A DNA stretch of 64,000 bases from Acidimicrobiia bacterium (GTDB lineage Bacteria; Actinomycetota; Acidimicrobiia; IMCC26256; JAMXLJ01), in the NCBI GenBank assembly GCA_035651955.1, contig DASRES010000090.1, forward strand, positions 1 through 64,000. The letters are read 5' to 3'. Of the stretch, positions 40,934 to 52,996 are shown piece after piece (position 1 is the first letter of the stretch; the number at the start of each line of letters is the position of its first letter). The position numbers and the translations under genes are program-made. The notes below the pieces were generated by a model. That model did not search any database. It saw nothing but the letters and a program-made list of their open reading frames with translations, and had not been told where the DNA came from.

Positions 40934-41881
40934 TCAGGCCGCGTTCGCCGAGTCCTCGTCCGCCATCACACGGTTGCGGCCGCCGAGCTTCGCCCGGTAC
41001 AGCGCGCCGTCGGCGCGCTCGAGCATCTCGGTGGACGTCTCGCCGCCCGGCCGCCAGCTCGCGACACCCGCGCTGATGGTGACGACCTGCGGGTCGGGTC
41101 GGCCCGCGTGCGGGACGCGCAGCTCCGCGATCGCCTCGCGCAACCGGTCCACGGCGGGGATCGCGCTGTCGAGGGTCTGGTCCGACAGCACGACGACGAA
41201 CTCCTCGCCGCCGTAGCGGTACGTCCCGTCACCGCTTCGGCAGTACGCGGCGAGCGTGCGCGCGACCTTGCGCAGCGCCTCGTCGCCCGCGAGGTGGCCG
41301 TACGTGTCGTTGTACGACTTGAAGTAGTCGAGGTCGAAGATCGCGACGCAGTAGCCGTGCCCGTAGCGCTCGGCCCGGTCGTGGATCGCGACGAGGTCCT
41401 CGTGCAGCCGCAGCCGGTTCCCGATCTGCGTCAGCGCGTCCGTACGAGCCAGCTGCTGGAGCTCGCCGTTGGCCTGCTCGAGCGCGGCCTGGAAGTCCTT
41501 CACCTGCTTGTGCAGGCCGGTCACGCGGTCCGCGGCGATCAGGCGCGTCTGCACGTCGAACGGGTCGAGCGGCTTCGTCAGGTAGTCGTCCGCGCCGGCC
41601 TGCATGCCGGCCACGACGTGCTCGCGCTCGCCGAGCGACGTCGCGAGGACGATGTAGGTGTATGTCCCGTGGTTGTCGTGACGGACGCGGCGGCACAGCT
41701 CGGGGCCGTCGAGGCCCGGCATCATCCAGTCGGTGATGAGCACGTCGAAGCGCGCGCCGGTGATGAGGTCCCAGGCCTCCTGACCGTCGGATGCCGTGAC
41801 GCACTCGTGACCGAGCCGTTCGACCGCGGCCTTCAGCACGAGGCGGCAGGTCGTGTCGTCGTCGGCGACCAGGACGCGCAT
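40934..41881 (-). CDS. Response regulator with diguanylate cyclase domain (REC-GGDEF)
   Basis: 315 residues. A receiver domain (RVLVADDDTTC, phospho-acceptor Asp51 in LITDWMMPG) is followed by a coiled coil near 120-145 and a GGDEF domain. The active-site motif is GGEEF at 224-228, so cyclic-di-GMP synthesis is expected. RSGD (215-218), exactly five residues before, is the RxxD product-inhibition site. It begins one base after the end of the hybrid kinase gene, which is its probable phosphodonor. The nearby PilB-like ATPase carries a cyclic-di-GMP-binding type domain. Confidence 0.95.
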   Translation of the reverse strand: MRVLVADDDTTCRLVLKAAVERLGHECVTASDGQEAWDLITGARFDVLITDWMMPGLDGPELCRRVRHDNHGTYTYIVLATSLGEREHVVAGMQAGADDYLTKPLDPFDVQTRLIAADRVTGLHKQVKDFQAALEQANGELQQLARTDALTQIGNRLRLHEDLVAIHDRAERYGHGYCVAIFDLDYFKSYNDTYGHLAGDEALRKVARTLAAYCRSGDGTYRYGGEEFVVVLSDQTLDSAIPAVDRLREAIAELRVPHAGRPDPQVVTISAGVASWRPGGETSTEMLERADGALYRAKLGGRNRVMADEDSANAA

Positions 41882-41882
41882 C

Positions 41883-44800
41883 TCAGCTCCTCGCGAGCTC
41901 CACGCCCAGGGCGTGGCGAACGTTGTCGAACTCCGTCTCGATCCGGTCGAGCAGCTCGCGCGCGCTGCCGAGCGCGGCGGCGCGTCCGAGGGCCTCGAGC
42001 TCGCGGCACAGCTCGGCCAAGCGCGTCGCGCCGATGTTGGCGCTCGCGCCCTTCACGGTGTGTGCGGCCCGCTCGACCGTGTGGGGGTCACCCTCGGCCA
42101 ACGCCGCGTGCAGCGTGTCGAGCTGCGCGCGCGCGTCGTTCGCGTACTCCTCGACGAGCAGCCTCAGCAGCTCGCCGTCGCCGCTGTCGAGGTCACGCAG
42201 CGTCGAGATGCGCGACGCGTCGAGGACGGGCGTGCCGTCGTCGTGCACGTCGTCGTCGTGCGGCGCGTCGTCGTCTTGCGGCGCCTCGGGCGCCGCGGGC
42301 GCGTCGTCCTGCACCACCTGGTCCCGGTCGTCCGCGATCCAGCGGCGCAGGGCCTGCTCGATCGCGTCGGCGCGCACGGGCTTGGTGATGTAGTCGTCCA
42401 TCCCGGCCTCGATGCACAGCTCGCGGTCGCCCTCCATCGCGGCGGCCGTCATCGCGATGACCGGGGTGTGCCGGCTCACACCTTCGCGGCGGCGCAGCTC
42501 GCGTGTCGCGTCGTACCCGTCCATCTCGGGCATCTGGCAGTCCATCAGGACCGCCGCGTAGCGCTTGTTGGCCAGCGCGGCGAGTGCCTCCCGGCCGTTG
42601 CCCGCGATGTCGACGCGGTACCCGAGCTTGTCGAGGATCCGCGACGCCACGAGCTGGTTCATGCTGTTGTCCTCGACGAGCAGGATCTGCGCGCCATCCG
42701 TGCGCGACGCCTCGCGCCGGCGGGGGTGACGCGCGGCCTGCTCCACGAGCGGTGCCGCGTCCGCGTTGATCCCGGTGACGATCAGGTTGAACAGCTCGGA
42801 CTGGCGGACCGGCTTCGTCAGGCACCCCGACAGGCCGTGTGCGCGCGCGGCGTCGCCGCCGAGTCGCTGCGCGGCCGAGCTGAGCAGGAACAGGCGCGCG
42901 TGCCGCAGGTCGGGATCGGCCATGATCGCGGACGCGAGCTGCAGCCCGTCCATCCGCGGCATGTTGAAGTCGAGGATGACGAGGTCGTACGCGCGGCCCT
43001 GCGCGGCCGCGGCCCGCAGCTCCTCCAGCGCGGCGACGCCGTCCTCCGCCTCGGCGGGCTCCATGCCCCACGAGCGGAGCTGCTGGCGGAGGATCAGCCG
43101 GTTCGTCGCGTTGTCGTCGACGACGAGCACGCGCAGCGAGCCGAGCTCCTGCACCGGGAACGTCGGACCGGCGCCGGCCTGCTTCGGCATGGTGAGCTCG
43201 AACCAGAACGTGCTGCCCGCGTCGACCTCGCTCTGCAACTGGAGCTCGCCGCCCATCATCTGGACGAGCTCCTTCGTGATCGCCAGGCCGAGGCCCGTGC
43301 CGCCGAAGCGGCGGGTCGTCGACGCGTCGGCCTGCGAGAACGGCTCGAACAGGCGTACCTGGTCGTCGGGCGCGATGCCGATGCCGGTGTCGCGGACCTC
43401 GAAGCGCAACCGCACGTCGTCGTCCGACTCCGCGATGCGGGTCACCTGCAGCACGACCTCACCGTCGGGCGTGAACTTCACCGCGTTCGACACGAGGTTC
43501 ACGAGGACCTGGCGCAGGCGGACTGGGTCGCCGCGCAGCGCGGTCGGCACGTCGGGCGCGCAGAACCCGATGAGCTCGATGTCCTTCGCGTTCGCGACGT
43601 CGCCGAGCAGCCCCGCGACGGTCTCGACGAGCAGCACGAGGTCGAGGTCGACCTCCTCGATCTCGACCTTGCCGGCCTCGATCTTCGAGAAGTCGAGGAT
43701 GTCGTTGATGATGCCGAGCAGTCCCTCCGCGGCGACCTGCACGCCGGCCGCGTACTCGCGCTGCTCGCCGTCGAGGCGGGTGTCGAGCAGCAGCTCGGTG
43801 AGGCCGATGACCGCGTTCATCGGCGTGCGGATCTCGTGGCTCATCGTCGCGAGGAACTGCGACTTCATCTGCGACGCTTCCATCGCCTGGTCACGCGCCG
43901 TCGCGAGCTCCTCCGCGGCGCGGTTGCGCTCGGTCACGTCGCGCACGTTGATGACCAGACCGCGCACGGTCTTGTCCTTCGTCAGGTTCGTCGCGGTGCC
44001 CTCGAGGTCGCGCCACGTCCCGTCACGGTGCCGCGCGCGATAGGCGACGTCGGCGGTCGTGCCCGGAACCTCGACGATCGGCGTCAGCTGCTCGGCCATG
44101 CGCTCGAGGTCGTTCGGGTGCACGAGCAGCGACGCGTCCGCGCCGACCGTCTCGTACGGCTCGTAGCCGAGGACGTTGCGCATCGACGGGCTCTGGTAGA
44201 GCGTCAGGCCCTCGAGGCTGACGACGGTGATCATGTCGGTCGAGTTGTGCACCAGCGTGCGGAACCGCTCGGACTCACGCTTCGCCGCGCGGCGGAGGAA
44301 GACGACGAGCACGATCGTGGCGAGGCCGCCGATCGACCCGAGGATGACGGCCATCGCGGCGAGCCGGCCCAACGCGGCGTGGGCGTCGACCGTGATCTGG
44401 TTGGCGGCGTCACCGGTGACGCTCGAGAGCTCGGCGCCCAGCACCCGGAGCTGCTGGAGGTCGGCCGCGTACTGCGGCGTGCCCTTCTGCACCGAGAGCA
44501 GGACCTCGCCGTGCTGCGTCAGCGTCTCGATCAGGCGTTGCTCGTGCTCGAGCTTGGCCCGCGCGTGCGCGCCGCTCACGGCGGGGATGCGGACGGTCTG
44601 CTCGGGGTTGCCGTTCGGCGACGGCACCTCGCCGCCGTGCAGCAGTGCCTGCGCGCTCTGGCGCAGGATCGCCGCGCTCTCGTCCGGGTCGGTCTGCACG
44701 CCGTCCGACTGCAGCACGAGGTCCTTGATGTAGCGCTCGACGAGCGTGCGCTGGCGCGTCGTCACGTTGACGAGCAGCGGCGTGTTGCGCTCGCGCTCCA

Positions 44801-44969
44801 GCGCGCCGACGACGTACCACATCATCGCGACGAGGAAGACGACGAGCGTGATGACGGAGCCGATGACGATCCGGTTCCGCCACAGCGCGTGCTTCAGCCG
44901 GTGCACGAGCCCCGCCTCGCCCGGCGCGGGCCGGCCCTTGGCGCGCAGCTCGGCGATCTGCCAGCTCAT
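41883..44969 (-). CDS. Hybrid sensor histidine kinase (PAS-HisKA-HATPase-REC-REC-HPt)
   Basis: 1028 residues from ATG 44969. Transmembrane helix at 34-56, an outer domain 57-198, a second helix near 199-222, PAS from about 232 (FRTLVHNSTDMITVV), HisKA with His378 (MSHEIRTPMN), HATPase (DTGIGIAPDD, GTGLGLAI), receiver Asp667, receiver Asp810 and a C-terminal HPt with His970 (AAHTVKGASANIG). The outer domain begins VNVTTRQRTLVERYIKDLVL, like the PilJ/NarX-type sensor helix. It overlaps the cupredoxin gene by four bases and the diguanylate cyclase follows at one base, so these three form one operon. The frame stays open upstream, but its start is set by this overlap. Confidence 0.94.
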   Translation of the reverse strand: MSWQIAELRAKGRPAPGEAGLVHRLKHALWRNRIVIGSVITLVVFLVAMMWYVVGALERERNTPLLVNVTTRQRTLVERYIKDLVLQSDGVQTDPDESAAILRQSAQALLHGGEVPSPNGNPEQTVRIPAVSGAHARAKLEHEQRLIETLTQHGEVLLSVQKGTPQYAADLQQLRVLGAELSSVTGDAANQITVDAHAALGRLAAMAVILGSIGGLATIVLVVFLRRAAKRESERFRTLVHNSTDMITVVSLEGLTLYQSPSMRNVLGYEPYETVGADASLLVHPNDLERMAEQLTPIVEVPGTTADVAYRARHRDGTWRDLEGTATNLTKDKTVRGLVINVRDVTERNRAAEELATARDQAMEASQMKSQFLATMSHEIRTPMNAVIGLTELLLDTRLDGEQREYAAGVQVAAEGLLGIINDILDFSKIEAGKVEIEEVDLDLVLLVETVAGLLGDVANAKDIELIGFCAPDVPTALRGDPVRLRQVLVNLVSNAVKFTPDGEVVLQVTRIAESDDDVRLRFEVRDTGIGIAPDDQVRLFEPFSQADASTTRRFGGTGLGLAITKELVQMMGGELQLQSEVDAGSTFWFELTMPKQAGAGPTFPVQELGSLRVLVVDDNATNRLILRQQLRSWGMEPAEAEDGVAALEELRAAAAQGRAYDLVILDFNMPRMDGLQLASAIMADPDLRHARLFLLSSAAQRLGGDAARAHGLSGCLTKPVRQSELFNLIVTGINADAAPLVEQAARHPRRREASRTDGAQILLVEDNSMNQLVASRILDKLGYRVDIAGNGREALAALANKRYAAVLMDCQMPEMDGYDATRELRRREGVSRHTPVIAMTAAAMEGDRELCIEAGMDDYITKPVRADAIEQALRRWIADDRDQVVQDDAPAAPEAPQDDDAPHDDDVHDDGTPVLDASRISTLRDLDSGDGELLRLLVEEYANDARAQLDTLHAALAEGDPHTVERAAHTVKGASANIGATRLAELCRELEALGRAAALGSARELLDRIETEFDNVRHALGVELARS

Positions 44970-45472
44970 GACCGCGGTCCCGACACGTCGAACTGCGTGT
45001 ACGTGCCGCCGAGGTAGTGGCCCTCGAGGTTGCAGTACGCGACGTAGTGGCCCGGAGGCAGGTCGAGCGTCAGGCGCGCGTGGCCGTCGAGCTTCACCTC
45101 GTCCACCTCGCCGACGGAGTGCAGCTGCGCGGACTGGTCGTTGACGGACAGCCCGTCGGGCCGCAGCGGCAACGCGTTCCCGGGCAGGTCCGTCCGTACG
45201 ACGTGGAACTCGTGGGTCGACGGCCCCGCGTTGGCGACGTCGAACGTCACCGAACCCGCGGGCACCGACGTACGCGACGGCTGCATGGCGAAGTCCCTGA
45301 TCCGGACGTCGACCACCGTGCCGGTCGCCTTCGACGAGGAGGAGCTGCAGCCCCCGGCGACGGCGACGACCGCCGCGACACCCAGTGCCGCGACGGCACG
45401 GCGTGCCGCCCGGGCGCGGCGCTCGGGCGCGCCGCCGGTCCCCGTTCTGCCCCTGCTCACGGTTCCCTGCAT
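44966..45472 (-). CDS. Cupredoxin-domain lipoprotein
   Basis: 168 residues. The N-terminus from ATG 45472 is long and basic, then VAALGVAAVVAVAGGC gives the lipoprotein Cys. The fold is type-1 copper: His87 (STHEFHV), Cys147 and His152 (YCNLEGHYLGG). The usual axial Met, five residues after the last His, is Thr157, so the copper site may be altered or the fold may only keep part of it. It is first in the operon with the kinase and the diguanylate cyclase, so it may sense or buffer copper or redox state for them; that link is inferred. Confidence 0.82.
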   Translation of the reverse strand: MQGTVSRGRTGTGGAPERRARAARRAVAALGVAAVVAVAGGCSSSSSKATGTVVDVRIRDFAMQPSRTSVPAGSVTFDVANAGPSTHEFHVVRTDLPGNALPLRPDGLSVNDQSAQLHSVGEVDEVKLDGHARLTLDLPPGHYVAYCNLEGHYLGGTYTQFDVSGPRS

Positions 45473-45499
45473 CGGCAGGACGCCGGCGTCGTTGAGCGA

Positions 45500-45516
45500 A
45501 ATGTCGGCGGAATGTC
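45500..45516 (-). promoter_or_regulatory. Direct repeats upstream of the cupredoxin-kinase operon
   Basis: GACATT occurs twice on the minus strand (AATGTC at 45500-45505 and 45511-45516 on plus), spaced 11 bp, one helical turn, about 30-45 bp before ATG 45472. Such spacing is common for response-regulator sites. No recognised binding consensus is claimed. Confidence 0.35.
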
Positions 45517-45540
45517 CGAATCGGCAGCGCTCGGGACCTC

Positions 45541-45566
45541 GGACCGGGCCGTTCCCGGCCCGGTCC
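45541..45566. promoter_or_regulatory. Perfect 10-bp hairpin in the divergent kinase/pilus gap
   Basis: GGACCGGGCC (45541-45550) and GGCCCGGTCC (45557-45566) form a perfect stem around GTTCCC. Its position in the 230-bp gap, about 137 bp before the pilus ATPase, could make it a leader hairpin or attenuator for that operon. It does not match the cyclic-di-GMP riboswitch core that I know. Confidence 0.45.
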
Positions 45567-45702
45567 CCTCTCAAGCGGACGGCCGACGCGCCGACGAACA
45601 GGTGACGGCTCGCTTCCCCGCTGCGGGGACGAGGGGATCGGACGGCGAGGCGATCGTGACCACCGGCTGCGCGGACCGCGCACACGACGAGATGGGACCG
45701 CT

Positions 45703-47472
45703 GTGAGACTGCGTCGCGGGCAGACGGCCGTCGACGACGACGCTCGCGCCGTCGCGCCCGAACCGTCGTCGTCCGCACCGGCCGCCGGTGCGCAACCGAC
45801 CCGCCGGCTCGGCGACCTGCTCGTCGAGCAGGAGCTCGTCTCGCAGGCGGAGCTCATGGAGGGCCTGCTCGAGCAGTCCGCCTCGGGCGGGCGGCTGGGC
45901 TCCGTGCTCGTCAAGCTGGGCATGCTCGACGAGCGCGACCTCGCGCGCGTGCTCTCCGAGCAGCAGGGCCTGCCCCTCGTCGACCTCCGTCAGGACGTTC
46001 CCGAGGCGTCCGCGCTCGAGCGGCTGCCCGAGAGCGTGGCCCGCAGCATGCACGCGATCCCGATCCGCGAGACACCCGACGGTCTGCTGATCGCGGTCGC
46101 GGACTCCGAGGAGCACGACGCGTACCGCGTCTTGTCGCAGGCCGTCGGCGGTCCCGTCGTGCTCGTGATCGCACCGCCGTCCGACATCGCGCGCGCGATC
46201 GACGGCTCGTACCGCGCGCTCGCCGGCGTCGACGAGCAGGTGCGCAGGTTCGAGGCGGTCGGTGGCGTGCGCGCGCGTACGGCCGGACCGCAGGTCGAGG
46301 TGGCCGACGACCACGCGCCCGTGGTGCAGGTCGTGAACCTCGTCATCACGCAGGCGCTGCGCGACCGTGCGTCGGACATCCACCTCGAGCCTCAGGGTGA
46401 CGTGGTGCGCGTCCGGTTCCGCATCGACGGCGCGCTGCACGAGGTCCAGGCGCTGCCCGCCGAGATGGGTCCCGCGGTCGTCAGCCGCATCAAGGTGCTC
46501 GCGGGCATGAACATCGTCGAGCGTCGCCGCGCCCAGGACGGTCAGCTCGAGATGACGATCGACGGTCGCGACCTCGACGTGCGTGTGTCGACCGTGCCGA
46601 CGATCCACGGCGAGAAGGCCGTGCTGCGCCTGCTCGACAAGAGCCGTTCGCTGTTCGAGCTCGACCAGCTCGGCATGCCGGACTCGACCCGTGCGACCTA
46701 CTCCGCGCTGACGCGTCACCCCTACGGGATGGTGATCGTCGCCGGCCCGACGGGCAGCGGCAAGACGACGACGCTGTACGCGACGCTCGCCCAGCTGAAC
46801 ACACCCGACCGCAACCTCACGACGATCGAGGACCCGGTCGAGTACGTGTTCCCGTCGATCAACCAGATCCAGATCAACGAGCAGGCGGGCGTGACGTTCG
46901 CCGACGGGCTCAAGTCGATCCTGCGCCAGGACCCGGACGTGATCCTCGTCGGCGAGATGCGCGACGTCGAGACGGCCCGCATCGCGGTGCAGTCCGCGCT
47001 CACCGGTCACTTCGTGCTGTCGTCGATCCACGCGACCGACGCCGCCTCCGCGTTGCACCGGTTCCTCGACATGGGGCTCGAGTCGTTCCTGATCGCGTCC
47101 TCGGTGCTCGGCATCGTCGCCCAGCGGCTCGTCCGCCGTACGTGCACGCACTGCCGGGTCCGCTACGAGCCGACGCCCGAGGAGCGCATGTTCTACGAGC
47201 ACGCGTCGAGCTCGTCCAAGAGCGAGTTCTGGCACGGGGCCGGGTGCAACTTCTGCTCGCACACCGGCTTCGAGGACCGCATCGGCGTGTTCGAGCTCCT
47301 GCGCTGCACGGACGAGATGCGCGACCTGATCGTGTCGAGCTCGTCGCACGACCGCATCCGCGAGCTCGCGGTCGAGCAGGGGATGGTGCCGATGCGCGAG
47401 GAAGCGCTGCGGCTCGTCGAGGAGGACGTCACCACGATCGCCGAGATCCTCCGCGGCGTCTACCTGATCTGA
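45703..47472 (+). CDS. pilB: Type IV pilus assembly ATPase (PilB/GspE-like) with MshEN domain
   Basis: 589 residues. The N-terminus has two successive MshEN-type segments, RRLGDLLVEQELVSQAELM and GRLGSVLVKLGMLDERDLA, the cyclic-di-GMP-binding motif class. Then the ATPase core: ASDIHLEP, Walker A GPTGSGKTT (348-356, Lys354), the Asp box EDPVEYV, ILVGEMRDVETA and His box IHATDAA. Two CxxC pairs (CTHC and CNFC) bind structural zinc. It powers pilin assembly on the inner membrane platform PilC, encoded 14 bp downstream. GTG 45703 is the start; an unusual Ala/Pro-rich 30-residue lead precedes MshEN. Confidence 0.95.
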   Translation: MRLRRGQTAVDDDARAVAPEPSSSAPAAGAQPTRRLGDLLVEQELVSQAELMEGLLEQSASGGRLGSVLVKLGMLDERDLARVLSEQQGLPLVDLRQDVPEASALERLPESVARSMHAIPIRETPDGLLIAVADSEEHDAYRVLSQAVGGPVVLVIAPPSDIARAIDGSYRALAGVDEQVRRFEAVGGVRARTAGPQVEVADDHAPVVQVVNLVITQALRDRASDIHLEPQGDVVRVRFRIDGALHEVQALPAEMGPAVVSRIKVLAGMNIVERRRAQDGQLEMTIDGRDLDVRVSTVPTIHGEKAVLRLLDKSRSLFELDQLGMPDSTRATYSALTRHPYGMVIVAGPTGSGKTTTLYATLAQLNTPDRNLTTIEDPVEYVFPSINQIQINEQAGVTFADGLKSILRQDPDVILVGEMRDVETARIAVQSALTGHFVLSSIHATDAASALHRFLDMGLESFLIASSVLGIVAQRLVRRTCTHCRVRYEPTPEERMFYEHASSSSKSEFWHGAGCNFCSHTGFEDRIGVFELLRCTDEMRDLIVSSSSHDRIRELAVEQGMVPMREEALRLVEEDVTTIAEILRGVYLI

Positions 47473-47486
47473 CGTCGGGAGCGCGC

Positions 47487-48692
47487 GTGCCGAAGTTCCG
47501 ATACGCAGCCGTCGACGGCGAGGGCAAGAAGGTCCGAGGCACCCTCGACGCGCCGAACGAGACCAGCGCGCGCCTGGCGCTGCTCGAGCGCGAGCTCGAG
47601 ATCGCGAAGCTCGACGAGCGGCGCAACCCGAACCAGATCGAGCTCACCACCCAGAAGGTGAAGCCCGAGCAGACGATGCTGTTCGCACGCCAGCTCGCGG
47701 CGTTCGTTCGCTCCGGCATCCCGATCATCCAGGCGATCGACCTCCTCGCGGCGGAGCAGAAGAAGCTGTTCGGCCGCGTCCTGCGTGACGTGTCCGACCG
47801 GCTGCGCCGCGGCGAGACGCTCTCCGACGCCGTCGCGGTCCACGCCGCGCGCTTCCCGCCCTACTTCGTGCCGATGCTGCGCTCGGCCGAGCTCACCGGG
47901 AACCTCGACTCCGTCCTCGACCGGCTGTCGGACTACATCGAGCGCGACCTCACGACCCGCCGAGCAGTGCGTGCCGCCCTCGTGTACCCGTCCGTCATCC
48001 TCGTGATGTCCATGGCGACGGTCGCGTTGCTCGTCGCGTTCGTGCTCCCGAAGTTCGAGCGGTTCTTCTCCGAGCTCGGCGCGAAGCTGCCGCTCTTCAC
48101 TCGCCTGCTGCTGTCGATCGCGCGGTTCTTCGAGTCGTGGTGGGCCGTGATCCTCGGGAGCGTCGCGGCCGTCGTCGTGCTGACCGCGCTCGTCGTGCGA
48201 ACGAAGCGAGGACGGTACGCGCGCGACGCGCTGCTCCTGAAGCTGCCGGTCGTCGGGACGGTCGCGCGATACGTCGCCGTCGAGCGGTTCTGCCGCGTGC
48301 TGTCGGCGATGATCGCGTCCGGCGTGTCGGTCGCGGCCGCGATGAACGCGGCCGCCGACGGCGCGCACAACCGGGTCTTCCGTCGCGCGTTGTACGCGGC
48401 ACGCGACGAGATGCTCGAGGGGAACGGGATCGCGCGGCCCGTCGTCGACACCGGCCTGTTCCCGGACGCCGCCGGCCAGATGCTGCTCGTCGGCGAGACC
48501 ACCGGGACGATGGACGCGCAGCTGCGCACGGCCGCGGACTACTACGAGCAGGAGGTGCTGCACCGGGTGAAGCGCCTCACGACGCTGTTCGAGCCCGCGG
48601 TCATCGTGCTGATGGGCGGCATCGTCGGGTTCGTCGCGATCGCGCTCGTGCAGGCGATGTACGGCGCGTTCCAGTCCGGGACGCTCCACTAG
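47487..48692 (+). CDS. pilC: Type IV pilus / type II secretion platform protein PilC (GspF)
   Basis: 401 residues, inner membrane platform. Two GspF domains: the first with LFARQLAAFVRSGIPIIQAI, the second with FCRVLSAMIASGVSVAAAM. Helices at ATVALLVAFVLPKF, WAVILGSVAAVVVLTALVV and PAVIVLMGGIVGFVAIALV span the membrane. GTG 47487 lies behind GGGAG. Next to the ATPase and pilins, it makes this a working pilus assembly set. There is no PilT, secretin or prepilin peptidase in the window. Confidence 0.95.
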   Translation: MPKFRYAAVDGEGKKVRGTLDAPNETSARLALLERELEIAKLDERRNPNQIELTTQKVKPEQTMLFARQLAAFVRSGIPIIQAIDLLAAEQKKLFGRVLRDVSDRLRRGETLSDAVAVHAARFPPYFVPMLRSAELTGNLDSVLDRLSDYIERDLTTRRAVRAALVYPSVILVMSMATVALLVAFVLPKFERFFSELGAKLPLFTRLLLSIARFFESWWAVILGSVAAVVVLTALVVRTKRGRYARDALLLKLPVVGTVARYVAVERFCRVLSAMIASGVSVAAAMNAAADGAHNRVFRRALYAARDEMLEGNGIARPVVDTGLFPDAAGQMLLVGETTGTMDAQLRTAADYYEQEVLHRVKRLTTLFEPAVIVLMGGIVGFVAIALVQAMYGAFQSGTLH

Positions 48693-48694
48693 CG

Positions 48695-49114
48695 ATGGCC
48701 CGCGGGCACCGCGGCGAGCGCGGCGAGACGCTGGTCGAGATCCTCGTCACGATCGCGGTCGTCGGGATCACGTTGACGGGCATCCTGGGCGGGATCGCGC
48801 TCGCGGTGCGGTCGTCGGGCGAGCAGCAGGGCCGCGCGACCGCCGAGACCGTCCTGCGCGACGAGGCCGAGGCCGTGCTGAGCCGCACGGTCACGTACGT
48901 CCCGTGCGCCACGACCTCGAGCTACCGGCCGTCGTACACCCCGCCGTCGGGATGGCAGGCGTCGATCACCGCGGTGCAGTACTGGGACGGCAAGACCCCC
49001 GCAGGCTGGCTCGGCACGTGCCCGAGTCCCGACAACGGGCTGCAACGGCTCACGCTCAGCGCCACCGACGGCCACGTGACGGAGACCGTCGACGTCCTCA
49101 AGCGCGTGTCATGA
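48695..49114 (+). CDS. Minor pilin with type IV prepilin signal
   Basis: 139 residues. GERGETLVEILVTIAVVGIT is the prepilin signal: cleavage after Gly10, then Glu at +1 in place of the usual Phe, with the conserved Glu at +5 of the mature chain. A hydrophobic helix and a small extracellular domain with two cysteines (VPCATT, GTCPSP) follow. ATG is 2 bp after pilC. The last four bases overlap the next pilin. Confidence 0.87.
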   Translation: MARGHRGERGETLVEILVTIAVVGITLTGILGGIALAVRSSGEQQGRATAETVLRDEAEAVLSRTVTYVPCATTSSYRPSYTPPSGWQASITAVQYWDGKTPAGWLGTCPSPDNGLQRLTLSATDGHVTETVDVLKRVS

Positions 49115-49701
49115 GCGACTTGTTCGCGCACGCGGGATGCAAGCGCCTGTTGGCGCAGGAGCGGCGAGCGCGACCAATGAACACGAGCGCGACGATCGAA
49201 CACGGTTTCACGTTGGTCGAGTTGCTCGTCGCGATCGCGGTGCTCGGGTTCGTCATGTTCCCGCTCGGGGTCGCGATCTCGACCGGCGTGCACACGACGG
49301 TCGCCGCGTCGCAGCGCTTCACCGACGCGCACGGCACCCAGATCGCGGCGACGTACTTCGCCGAGGACGTCGCGAGCGCGGCGACGGTCACGGCGAACGA
49401 CTCGTCGCCGTGCGGCGGTGGCGGGCCGTCCGTCGTGACGTTCCGCTGGAGCGACGACGTCTCGCCGTCGTCGGCCGCCTCCTACGTCGTCCGCACCGTC
49501 TCGGGTGACCGCACGCTCGTCCGCACGCTGTGTCGGGGCGGGCCGCCCGTCGAGACCGCGACGATCGTGACCGGTCTCGCGGCGGCGAACCCCTCGGTCG
49601 TGTGCACGCCGTCGTGCAACGCGCCTTCGTCGGTCACGCTGACGGTGACGCAGACGAGCGGCAACACGTTCCGCCTGCTCGGCACGCGGCGGTCGGCATG
49701 A
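49111..49701 (+). CDS. Minor pilin (PilW/GspJ-like) with type IV prepilin signal
   Basis: 196 residues with the ATG overlapping the previous stop; an ATG at 49177 would give the short leader MNTSATIEHG before the classical FTLVELLVAIAVLGFV. The body has several Cys (SSPCGGG, TLCRGG, VCTPSCNAP) that could form disulfides. It probably sits at the pilus tip complex. Which start is used changes only the leader length. Confidence 0.86.
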   Translation: MSDLFAHAGCKRLLAQERRARPMNTSATIEHGFTLVELLVAIAVLGFVMFPLGVAISTGVHTTVAASQRFTDAHGTQIAATYFAEDVASAATVTANDSSPCGGGGPSVVTFRWSDDVSPSSAASYVVRTVSGDRTLVRTLCRGGPPVETATIVTGLAAANPSVVCTPSCNAPSSVTLTVTQTSGNTFRLLGTRRSA

Positions 49702-51827
49702 CCCGGCCCGCTCGCGGCGAGGCCGGTGCGAGCCTGATGTTCGCGCTCGTGCTCGTGTCGTTCGTCGGCGTGCTCGGCACGATCGTGCTGGGCTACGGCT
49801 CGATCGGGTTGCGCAGCACCGGGTCGGTGCGTGCGGAGCGCGCCGCGTCCTACGCGGCGGATGGCGCGGTGCAGGGCGCGATCCAGTACGTCCGGACGCG
49901 CGCGACCGCGGGGCGCGATCCCGCGATCGGCGGCACGTGCCCGACGTTCAGCGTCCCCGACGTCGACGCGACGCCCGTCACCGTCACGTGCACGGGCCAG
50001 GCCGGTAGCGGTGTCGTCACACCGGGCGTGAACGCGCCGCGCGACGCGATCCTGACGCTCGGGACGTCCGCGTCCGACGGCGTCACCGTCGTCGGGGGAG
50101 GGACGCTCCACGTCGCCGGAGCGGTGTTCTCCAGCAACACGATCTCGGTCCCGGGGAAGCTCGACGACACCGGCAACGTCGTGAAGGCGCGGGGCGCCTG
50201 CACCGGGACGATCAGCGCGACGAGCGTGCAGTGCAACCTCGGGCCGACGAACGACCCGGCCGGCACGGACCCCGCGTACGCGTCCCCGCTGAAGACATTG
50301 CCGACGTACCGCGCCGTCCCGGCGTGCCCCGGCCCGAACAGCACGGTGTCGTTCTCGCCCGGCTTCTACGACGACGCCGCCGGGCTGTCGTCGCTCATGA
50401 GCGGCGGGTGCCCGGGGCTGCTCGCGTGGTTCCAGCCCGGCACGTACTACTTCGACTTCGATCTCGACCCGACGCACCCGGCCGTGTGGTCGGTCGACGA
50501 CCCCAGCGTGAACGTGGTCGGGGGCACACCGAACGGCTGGGCGCCGACCGGGCGTCCGGCCGTCCCGAACCCGGGCGGGTGCAAGACGGAGACGGATCCG
50601 GCGCCGAACGCCGGCGTGACGTTCGTGTTCGGCGGCGGGAGCCGCTTCGCCGTCGGCGGCGGGAAGGTCGAGCTCTGCGCGACGCCGAGCCGCACCGCGC
50701 AACAGCTCGCGATCTACGGGCTGCAGACGGGATCCACGCCCGCGCAGACGATCACGGCCGCGCGCGCCGCGACCGTCACGCAGGTCGCGCAGACGACCGC
50801 GTACACGTCACCGGGCAACGCGAAGGCGATCACGAACACACCGAGCAACGCGACCGCCGTCCTCGCGGCGGCTGCACCGGGCGCGGTCGACCCGACCGGT
50901 GCGCCGCCGAGCGTCGCGGCGCTCGACCTCGGCGGCTACGCGATGCCGGTGCTGCCCGGAGGCGCGGCCTCGCTGCAGGTGACGTTGCGCGTCGCGCACG
51001 CGGAGACGCCCGGCCCGGGCGCGATGGTCGCCGGCCGGCCCGGTCGCATCGCGTGGCCGGTCGGCGTGCCGATCCCTGCGCCGCCCAACCCGGTCCCCGC
51101 GCCGCCCGCGAACGAGCCGGCGGGCGTCTGGGTGCCTGTGACCGCCCCGCCGGCGGTCTCGCCCGACCCCACGCCCGGCGGCGGCACGATCACCGCCGCG
51201 CCCGGGTCGGGCACCGTGCCCGCGCCCGCCGGCACCGTCGCGCTCACCGCGACCGTCACGCCGGGCGACGGGTCGCCGGCGTGCACGGTGTTGATCCCCG
51301 CGTCGCAGACGTCGCAGGTGGCCGAGGGTGACGTCACGCCGTGCGTCGACACGCCGGCGAAGCGCAGCGGCCTTACGGTCCGGTTCGCGGCGTCGGCCGT
51401 CGCGAACGTCCCCGTCACCGAGAAGCTCGACGGCGTCGAGCTCGCGTTCCGCTACACACCTCCGGCCCTCCGCGCGCAGGCGGGATGCGTGACCGTGGGC
51501 GGGCCGGGCGGGTGCGCGTTCCTCACCGACACGGGCGGTTCGCCGCTCGCGATCCAGGGGACCGTCTACGCGCCGCGGGCGTCGCTCGACCTCGACCTCG
51601 CGCGCACGGCGCACGTCGTGCTCGGTCGCGGCGTCGTGAGCCGGGCGTTCGTCGTGCGCAACCCGTCCGCGGATCCGAACGGCACCGTCCGGCTGCTCGG
51701 GACCCGGCAGGTCGCGTTCGTGGCCACGGTGAGTGGGCACCGGCGGATCCGCGCGCTCGTCTCGTTCCTGGACACCCCGGTCGCCGGGCAGACAGTCACC
51801 GTCGACGACTGGAGCGCGGCCCGGTGA
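49698..51827 (+). CDS. Large PilX-like pilus-associated surface protein
   Basis: 709 residues. The N-terminus ARGEAGASLMFALVLVSFVG resembles PilX/GspK-type pilus proteins, with a single hydrophobic helix and no FTLxE box. The large outer part is rich in Gly, Thr and Pro. The central stretch VPIPAPPNPVPAPPANEPAG is a proline-rich linker between two domains. Cysteines are present in pairs (GTCPTF, GGCPGLL, GGCKTE). It is the longest secreted product of the operon and the best candidate for an adhesin or tip protein, but that is inferred. Confidence 0.75.
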   Translation: MTRPARGEAGASLMFALVLVSFVGVLGTIVLGYGSIGLRSTGSVRAERAASYAADGAVQGAIQYVRTRATAGRDPAIGGTCPTFSVPDVDATPVTVTCTGQAGSGVVTPGVNAPRDAILTLGTSASDGVTVVGGGTLHVAGAVFSSNTISVPGKLDDTGNVVKARGACTGTISATSVQCNLGPTNDPAGTDPAYASPLKTLPTYRAVPACPGPNSTVSFSPGFYDDAAGLSSLMSGGCPGLLAWFQPGTYYFDFDLDPTHPAVWSVDDPSVNVVGGTPNGWAPTGRPAVPNPGGCKTETDPAPNAGVTFVFGGGSRFAVGGGKVELCATPSRTAQQLAIYGLQTGSTPAQTITAARAATVTQVAQTTAYTSPGNAKAITNTPSNATAVLAAAAPGAVDPTGAPPSVAALDLGGYAMPVLPGGAASLQVTLRVAHAETPGPGAMVAGRPGRIAWPVGVPIPAPPNPVPAPPANEPAGVWVPVTAPPAVSPDPTPGGGTITAAPGSGTVPAPAGTVALTATVTPGDGSPACTVLIPASQTSQVAEGDVTPCVDTPAKRSGLTVRFAASAVANVPVTEKLDGVELAFRYTPPALRAQAGCVTVGGPGGCAFLTDTGGSPLAIQGTVYAPRASLDLDLARTAHVVLGRGVVSRAFVVRNPSADPNGTVRLLGTRQVAFVATVSGHRRIRALVSFLDTPVAGQTVTVDDWSAAR

Positions 51828-51877
51828 ATCGCCGCATTCCCCCTCAAGCCGCCGCCTCAGCGGCCGAGAGAGAGAGC

Positions 51878-52225
51878 ATGTTGACTGCGCGCAACCGCCG
51901 GAGCGAGCACGGCTTCACGCTGACCGAGCTCCTCATCGTCATCGTCGTCATGGGGATCCTCGCCGGCGTCGTCGTCTTCGCGATGTCCGGGGTGACGAAC
52001 CACGCCAAGTCCACCTCCTGCACGACCGAGAAGCAGACGATCCAGACCGCCGAGGACGCGTACTTCGCGAACCCGACGAACAACAGCAAGTACGGGAGCG
52101 TGAACGCGCTCGTGACGGGCGGCTACCTCAAGGCGACGCCGAAGAGCTACACGGTGACGCTCGGTGCGGGCAGCACGAGCTACACGGTCACGGCGATCGC
52201 CAACAACGCCAACGGCTGCACGTGA
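51878..52225 (+). CDS. Probable major pilin (GspG/PilA-like)
   Basis: 115 residues. MLTARNRRSEHG is the leader and FTLTELLIVIVVMGILAGVV the mature N-terminal helix, with Glu5. The small head has the CTTEKQTIQTAEDAYFANPT pattern of GspG-type and Gram-positive pilins, and two cysteines (TSC, NGC) at the ends that could pair. ATG 51878 follows GAGAGAGAG; a GTG at 51824 overlapping the previous gene is less likely. It is the last gene before the terminator. Confidence 0.9.
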   Translation: MLTARNRRSEHGFTLTELLIVIVVMGILAGVVVFAMSGVTNHAKSTSCTTEKQTIQTAEDAYFANPTNNSKYGSVNALVTGGYLKATPKSYTVTLGAGSTSYTVTAIANNANGCT

Positions 52226-52263
52226 TCGCGGCGAGCGGCGCCGCCGCTCCGTCCACCGGTGAC

Positions 52264-52294
52264 GAGGGCCCCGACCGGTTCGGTCGGGGCCCTC
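52264..52294 (+). terminator. Strong intrinsic terminator of the pilus operon
   Basis: GAGGGCCCCGACC pairs with GGTCGGGGCCCTC in a 13-bp perfect stem around GGTTC, followed by TTGTA. It lies 38 bp after the pilin stop and ends the operon. It overlaps the extended frame of the next gene, which argues for a start at 52310 there. Confidence 0.9.
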
Positions 52295-52309
52295 TTGTAC
52301 TCTCGCTCC

Positions 52310-52996
52310 ATGCTGGCGCGGGGTGGTTCGCAACGGATCCCGCGCCCGGCGCACGCCCGTCCCGGCGGTCCGCCGCCGTGGGCCGCGCTCCCGCCCGACG
52401 CGCGCGGCTTCACGGTCGCCGAGATCCGTGACGCGTGCCGCGCGCTGCCACCGCCGCAACGTCTGACGGCCGTCGCCCCGAGCCGTCCGGCCGCGGTGCT
52501 GATGCCGTTCTTCGACGAGGACGGCGAGGCGCGCGTCATCCTGACGAAGCGGCCGGAGACGATGCCGTCGCACCAGGGCGAGATCGCGTTCCCCGGTGGC
52601 AAGCACCAGCCGGACGTCGACGAGTCGCTGCTGCACGCCGCGCTGCGCGAGGCGCAGGAGGAGATCGGCCTCGAGCGCTCGACGGTCGAGGTCGCCGCGG
52701 AGCTCGACTCGCTCGGGACCGTCGCGTCGCGCTTCACGATCACGCCGTTCGTCGGCCTGCTCGACGGCCGTCCCGCGCTCCGCCGCAACCCGTACGAGGT
52801 CGTGTCGGTGTTCGACGTGCCGGTCGCGGAGCTCCTCGATCCCGACGCGTATCGCGAGGAGCGGTGGGACCTGGACGGGGACGAGCAGCCGGGCCGCGTC
52901 ATCCAGTTCTTCCTGCTCCCGGGCGAGACCGTCTGGGGCGCGACGGCGCGGATCCTCGCCCGCTTCCTCGCACATCTCAGCGCGCCGCGTCTGTGA
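52310..52996 (+). CDS. Nudix CoA pyrophosphatase-like hydrolase
   Basis: 228 residues. VILTKRPETMPSHQGEIAFP with the Nudix box GGKHQPDVDESL...REAQEEIGL is the CoA pyrophosphatase (NudL) signature; it would cut CoA to phosphopantetheine and 3',5'-ADP. ATG 52310 is chosen because the longer frame would run into the terminator. The hexamer TACTCT (52298-52303) lies only 6 bp before the ATG, so a leaderless transcript is possible. Confidence 0.88.
   Translation: MLARGGSQRIPRPAHARPGGPPPWAALPPDARGFTVAEIRDACRALPPPQRLTAVAPSRPAAVLMPFFDEDGEARVILTKRPETMPSHQGEIAFPGGKHQPDVDESLLHAALREAQEEIGLERSTVEVAAELDSLGTVASRFTITPFVGLLDGRPALRRNPYEVVSVFDVPVAELLDPDAYREERWDLDGDEQPGRVIQFFLLPGETVWGATARILARFLAHLSAPRL

Follow-up and report, generated by a model that had tools for sequence, protein, structure and literature searches.

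A predicted cyclic di-GMP phosphorelay with a cupredoxin partner lies beside a type IV pilus operon, probably as an independent module, in an Acidimicrobiia genome

Diguanylate cyclases of the WspR and PleD class, in which a receiver (REC) domain is joined to a GGDEF domain, are driven by a kinase. The MshEN ATPases, including Vibrio cholerae MshE, Clostridium perfringens PilB2 and Thermus thermophilus PilF, carry tandem 24-residue motifs for cyclic di-GMP (c-di-GMP); PMC5013675 gives their definition and PMC11731258 extends it. PilB proteins that bind c-di-GMP have already been published for monoderms, in C. perfringens (PilB2, discussed in PMC11656802) and in Paenibacillus thiaminolyticus (PMC9765702), and Pseudomonas aeruginosa has a GGDEF-EAL protein with a copper-binding CHASE4 domain, where the sensor domain itself binds the copper (PMC13277305). 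The region described here, positions 40934-52294 of a 64,000-nt stretch of DNA from an Acidimicrobiia bacterium (the window, whose positions are used throughout), contains an operon of three genes, here called the triad, for a cupredoxin-like lipoprotein, a hybrid histidine kinase and a REC-GGEEF cyclase, and a divergent pilus operon in which PilB has an N-terminal MshEN domain. Gene boundaries were determined and the encoded proteins were searched for Pfam domains. G000 is the genome of the window and other G labels are related genomes; L labels are loci and C labels are contigs of G000.

The two operons are best explained as independent modules that are neighbours by chance, one a surface-sensor phosphorelay that would make c-di-GMP and the other a secondary pilus whose PilB would read the cellular pool. 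The probability of this reading is put at about 0.72, and the observations behind it are the gene content, the motifs, the conservation of the triad, the fusion of the same sensor to GGDEF-EAL and the lack of linkage in relatives.

The triad is transcribed leftward, with the kinase start overlapping the cupredoxin stop as ATGA and the cyclase gene lying one base beyond the kinase gene. The right operon is transcribed rightward in the order pilB, pilC, two minor prepilin genes, a gene for a protein of 709 amino acids (aa) and a gene for a PilA-like pilin, and ends at 52225; PilB, PilC and class III prepilins thus occur together as a type IV pilus set. These boundaries agree with an earlier description made from the letters of the window (the first-pass annotation) in giving divergent operons that share a 230-bp gap. 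The genes it reported are real and correctly placed, and only its end point, 52294, falls slightly inside the NUDIX gene. Its signalling operon of cyclase and kinase also stands, but the third gene, for the cupredoxin, went unmentioned, though a gap of 230 bp implies it.

40934-41881, minus strand: response-regulator diguanylate cyclase, REC-GGEEF, with inhibition site (I-site) RSGD (Pfam Response_reg 86.8 bits, GGDEF 146.8 bits)
41883-44969, minus strand: membrane hybrid histidine kinase, 1028 aa, with a transmembrane (TM) helix, PilJ-like helical sensor, TM helix, PAS, HisKA, HATPase, REC, REC and a histidine phosphotransfer (Hpt) domain
44966-45472, minus strand: cupredoxin-like lipoprotein, lipobox VAGGC, first gene of its operon (Cupredoxin_1 31.6 bits, cut-off 27)
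45473-45702, no strand: divergent intergenic gap of exactly 230 bp between the cupredoxin gene and pilB
45703-47472, plus strand: PilB extension ATPase with N-terminal MshEN (T2SSE 426.9 bits; MshEN 62.7 bits, Pfam cut-off 23.1)
45805-45876, plus strand: MshEN motif I, RLGDLLVEQELVSQAELMEGLLEQ (10/11 consensus positions, Glu for Gly10)
45892-45963, plus strand: MshEN motif II, RLGSVLVKLGMLDERDLARVLSEQ (10/11 consensus positions, Met at position 11)
47487-48692, plus strand: PilC platform protein (Pfam T2SSF 174.9 bits)
48695-49114, plus strand: minor prepilin (N_methyl 22.6 bits, cut-off 21.2; 43% identity in G001)
49177-49701, plus strand: minor prepilin, start uncertain, 49111 possible (N_methyl 29.5 bits; 44% identity in G001)
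49698-51827, plus strand: 709-aa protein with an N-terminal hydrophobic helix, in a PilX-like position (42% and 35% identity in G001)
51878-52225, plus strand: PilA-like type IV pilin, GFTLTELLIV (N_methyl 34 bits; kept in most related loci)
52259-52996: NUDIX gene, downstream of the pilA-like gene

The pilus operon is found in relatives with other neighbours. G001, the only genome of the same genus, contains a locus (L051) that is colinear with the window, the aligned blocks being 66-86% identical at the DNA level, and has the order tsaD-groES-acyl-CoA synthetase-pilB-pilC-prepilins-709 aa-pilA-nudix-guaB-guaA. The triad is missing from L051, where the acyl-CoA synthetase gene stands directly before pilB, and the kinase sensor is absent from the G001 genome as searched. 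Within the stretches read, the triad is present at none of the 34 related pilus loci (L051 and 33 others), and a GGDEF profile gave a match near one of them only, L068, at a distance of about 6-8 kb. L058 and L063, which belong to another family, have the order tsaD-groES-pilB with no signalling genes in between, and for this reason insertion in the window's lineage is favoured over loss in G001. The left operon was thus probably inserted between the acyl-CoA synthetase gene and pilB, as judged from gene order. A base-composition mark of insertion was sought and none was found, the GC content being uniform at 0.70-0.73 across the triad.

Among 395 genomes sampled across the class, 4 were found to carry the sensor of the kinase, and every one of them belongs to the same order. 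Complete triads are present in two of that order, G034 (locus L100; cupredoxin, kinase and cyclase 40/56/59% identical to those of the window) and G048 (L101; 52/54/59%). Reading 6-8 kb to each side of these triads revealed no pilus gene of the window's kind; the window-type pilB that G034 and G048 each possess is on a different contig. In L102 of G056 (identical to L108), L106 and L110, the same cupredoxin gene is followed by the same sensor and then by GGDEF and EAL in the same stretch, and in L102 the sensor-PAS-GGDEF-EAL fusion was read as one open frame. The triads and fusions elsewhere therefore support the step from sensor to cyclase but separate it from the pilus. A further locus, L107, has the cupredoxin and sensor (L107:2778-3838) on a contig that ends soon after and is labelled Burkholderiales, suggesting either transfer or a mis-binned contig.

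The window cyclase resembles the WspR/PleD class in its REC phospho-Asp, GGEEF active site and RxxD inhibitory site. The receiver motif is ITDWMMP at residue 49, with the phospho-accepting Asp present, and the GGDEF domain is full length (profile positions 2-161 of 161). The stretch RSGD-GTYRY-GGEEF is intact from residue 215, RSGDGTYRYGGEEF, with the I-site five residues upstream of the active site, and this bears out the intact GGEEF and RxxD site of the first-pass annotation. Unlike in the WspR/PleD class, the predicted input comes from one hybrid kinase, which carries two RECs and an Hpt, and a cupredoxin lipoprotein is encoded in the operon. The phosphoacceptors of the kinase are present, namely SHEIRTP in HisKA, Asp in both RECs and HTVKGAS in Hpt. 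That this kinase drives the cyclase had been proposed from the window alone and is very probably correct, as the order of the triad is kept in two other genomes and fusion of the same sensor to GGDEF-EAL in other loci is good evidence that the kinase output is c-di-GMP. From operon conservation and these fusions we infer phosphotransfer from the kinase, via Hpt, to the REC domain of the cyclase.

The pairing of cupredoxin, sensor and cyclase is the least expected part of the region. In 6/6 other loci compared (L100, L101, L102, L106, L107 and L110) the cupredoxin gene is upstream of the sensor gene, and these loci show that the cupredoxin is the sensor's constant partner. In the window copy the ligands His...C-x4-H are kept and the axial position is Thr, whereas it is Met in the copies from L100, L101 and L102; because of this Thr, copper or redox as the signal is only a guess. 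The P. aeruginosa CHASE4 protein is similar in having a periplasmic metal-related input and a GGDEF/EAL output, but in the window system a separate cupredoxin lipoprotein is encoded by a partner gene. In the literature covered, which fell short of a full search, no paper was found that ties a cyclase to a cupredoxin partner, and the pairing of cupredoxin, sensor and c-di-GMP appears to be undescribed.

The sensor is predicted to fold outside the cytoplasm as a helical bundle, flanked by two membrane helices (mean predicted local distance difference test score 81.9, from a five-sequence alignment), as in PilJ/NarX/NarQ-type sensors. Pfam PilJ (PF13675) matches 5/7 members of the sensor family, with a best E of 2.8e-6, but the window copy is sub-threshold (E 0.1). 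Fold matches are all weak (E 0.03 or worse); NarQ structures are among the top ones, and another is the structure of a LytS sensor bound in a complex to a sugar-binding protein. A search of the sensor profile against solved structures gave helical matches at chance level only (best E 0.015). The window sensor also departs from NarX and NarQ at the nitrate G-x-x-R/N-box, where it reads NVTTRQRTLVER, with Thr for the nitrate-contacting Gly. As the glycine of G-x-x-R is replaced, nitrate is disfavoured and is not the expected ligand.

The pilus half was compared with the MshEN motif consensus of 24 residues, [RKL]LGxx[LVI][LVI]xxG[LVI][LVI]xxxxLxxxLxxQ, and its 5-residue spacer (PMC5013675, PMC11731258). 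The N-terminus of the window PilB has the tandem arrangement of the known MshEN ATPases, RLGDLLVEQELVSQAELMEGLLEQ - SASGG - RLGSVLVKLGMLDERDLARVLSEQ, with a spacer of five residues as in the consensus, and this tandem pattern occurs only once in the six frames of the 64 kb. Both motifs keep all of the core residues (R, L, G, L, L, Q), six in number, that in MshE contact the ligand, and Walker A is present. The nearest solved structures found with phmmer are PilF 6f8l (1.6e-28) and MshE 5htl (9.9e-19), with PilB also found. Where the first-pass annotation counted two MshEN segments, there are two c-di-GMP motifs in one domain. Differences from the known MshEN ATPases are the Glu at the turn Gly of motif I and the actinobacterial host, and binding by the window protein is a prediction from its sequence.

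The same genome encodes two other MshEN proteins, a PilB and a PilT on C58, in which the second motifs are degenerate, with PLP for the RLG start. The full core is found in both motifs of 6/35 window-type PilBs (window included) versus 0/20 readable PilBs of the C58 type. On this comparison the window PilB is the likeliest of the three pilus ATPases to read c-di-GMP, if any does, and it is a plausible c-di-GMP receptor. PilBs with intact motifs also occur in relatives that gave no sensor match (G001, G008, G030, G014 and G040). Lost consensus is no proof of lost binding: a T. thermophilus PilF domain binds c-di-GMP even though one of its motifs has Pro at position 1 (PMC11731258).

Family searches across G000 gave 21 GGDEF matches, of which 15 have exact GG[DE]EF and 13 have an I-site; EAL matches number 13. 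A host with some 15 intact GGDEF domains and these EAL matches needs no private circuit, and the window cyclase would be one of many c-di-GMP sources, as about 20 other predicted GGDEF matches can supply c-di-GMP. The window operon also contains no genes for PilD, PilM, PilN, PilO or PilT; PilD-PilM-PilN-PilO are encoded on C39, and PilT on C58 and C81.

In the proposed mechanism the cupredoxin-like lipoprotein, outside the membrane, would modulate the PilJ-like helical sensor of the hybrid kinase, and phosphate would pass from HisKA to REC, then to Hpt and to the REC domain of the cyclase. The cyclase would make c-di-GMP, with product inhibition at RxxD, and the MshEN domain of PilB in this second type IV pilus would read the general c-di-GMP pool, promoting assembly. 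The pilus would borrow PilD, PilM, PilN, PilO and PilT from the other loci.

The first-pass annotation had read the region as suggesting a complete sense-signal-pilus circuit, had proposed co-occurrence of the operons in other genomes as a check, and had named their separation in relatives as a ground for rejection. In such a dedicated circuit the phosphorelay would make c-di-GMP mainly for the adjoining PilB, by local production or by transcription shared across the 230-bp gap, as might be suggested by the divergent arrangement across one short gap and by the near-consensus site of the window PilB, unlike those of the genome's other MshEN pilus ATPases. However, separation is what the relatives show: within the stretches read, the operons are unlinked in 34/34 related pilus loci, including that of the same genus; triad operons elsewhere lie away from pilus genes of the window's kind over the 6-8 kb read to each side, PilB motifs are kept without the triad, and many other GGDEF proteins are encoded in the genome. 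Since the relatives show the pairing to be a local arrangement, a dedicated circuit is not supported and is judged unlikely. Sigma-70 consensus promoters and terminators were sought in the gap and none were found, which is uninformative at about 71% GC, and a search of the region for a c-di-GMP riboswitch found none, the one match being sub-threshold and snoRNA-like. Large hybrid kinases can have several partners and an Hpt step permits branching, so that the kinase might drive a different output while another kinase regulates the cyclase. This is very unlikely given that the cyclase gene is directly downstream in all three triads and the same sensor is fused to GGDEF-EAL elsewhere.

Some points weigh against independent modules with a c-di-GMP-responsive PilB. 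The change of Gly10 to Glu in motif I touches the turn position and could mean weaker binding; the call of insertion over loss uses one same-genus genome and the outgroups L058 and L063, in which gene order is related, not identical; and in this single lineage the adjacency may yet have a function. The missing turn glycine would also fit an MshEN-like domain in the window PilB that is purely structural and does not bind c-di-GMP, leaving operons that share nothing, as would the further loss of consensus residues in many related PilBs, which makes the constraint in the wider clade weak. The intact ligand-contact core in both motifs and the tolerance of the extended consensus for variation (PMC11731258) argue against a structural role alone, which is considered quite improbable, and favour a PilB that would read the pool.

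Control of pili by c-di-GMP through MshEN is known, monoderms included, and the pilus half adds one member. What the signalling half suggests is an input that has drawn little notice: all loci compared have a cupredoxin gene next to one type of sensor, and the output, wherever readable, is c-di-GMP enzymes. These loci offer a concrete case, open to testing, in which metal or redox state may be paired with c-di-GMP. It is tentatively suggested, as a possibility on the doubtful side of even, that the surface cupredoxin is the signal-bearing partner of a PilJ-like sensor controlling c-di-GMP, either via a phosphorelay or via a GGDEF-EAL fusion, and that these systems form an undescribed copper/redox input family in Actinomycetota, with the member described here set next to a pilus that responds to c-di-GMP. 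The comparison also makes plain that operons which are neighbours in a single genome can point to a circuit for which relatives give no support.

The 709-aa protein, for which the Pfam search gave no match, evolves fast within the genus inside a conserved pilus operon and is possibly a pilus tip or adhesin subunit. Elsewhere in G000, pilus genes lie among housekeeping and shikimate genes on C58 (L046; alaS-ruvX-mltG-aroE-pilB-pilT-pilC) and beside chorismate synthase on C39 (L208; pilD-pilM-pilN-pilO-aroC), and the two are possibly one cluster split between contigs. PilT is usually without an MshEN domain. The PilT retraction ATPase of C58 (L046:9494-11113), and also that of L085, has one at the N-terminus (50.6 bits, cut-off 23.1); in the G000 protein both motifs deviate from the consensus, and full-length relatives are present in about 38/100 related genomes. 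A PAS-GGDEF-EAL protein is encoded a few kb from the C58 pilB-pilT-pilC cluster (L046:3684-5891). G000 also has three TadA-type ATPases, on C59, C54 and C35, and Flp/Tad pili are therefore likely to be present as well.

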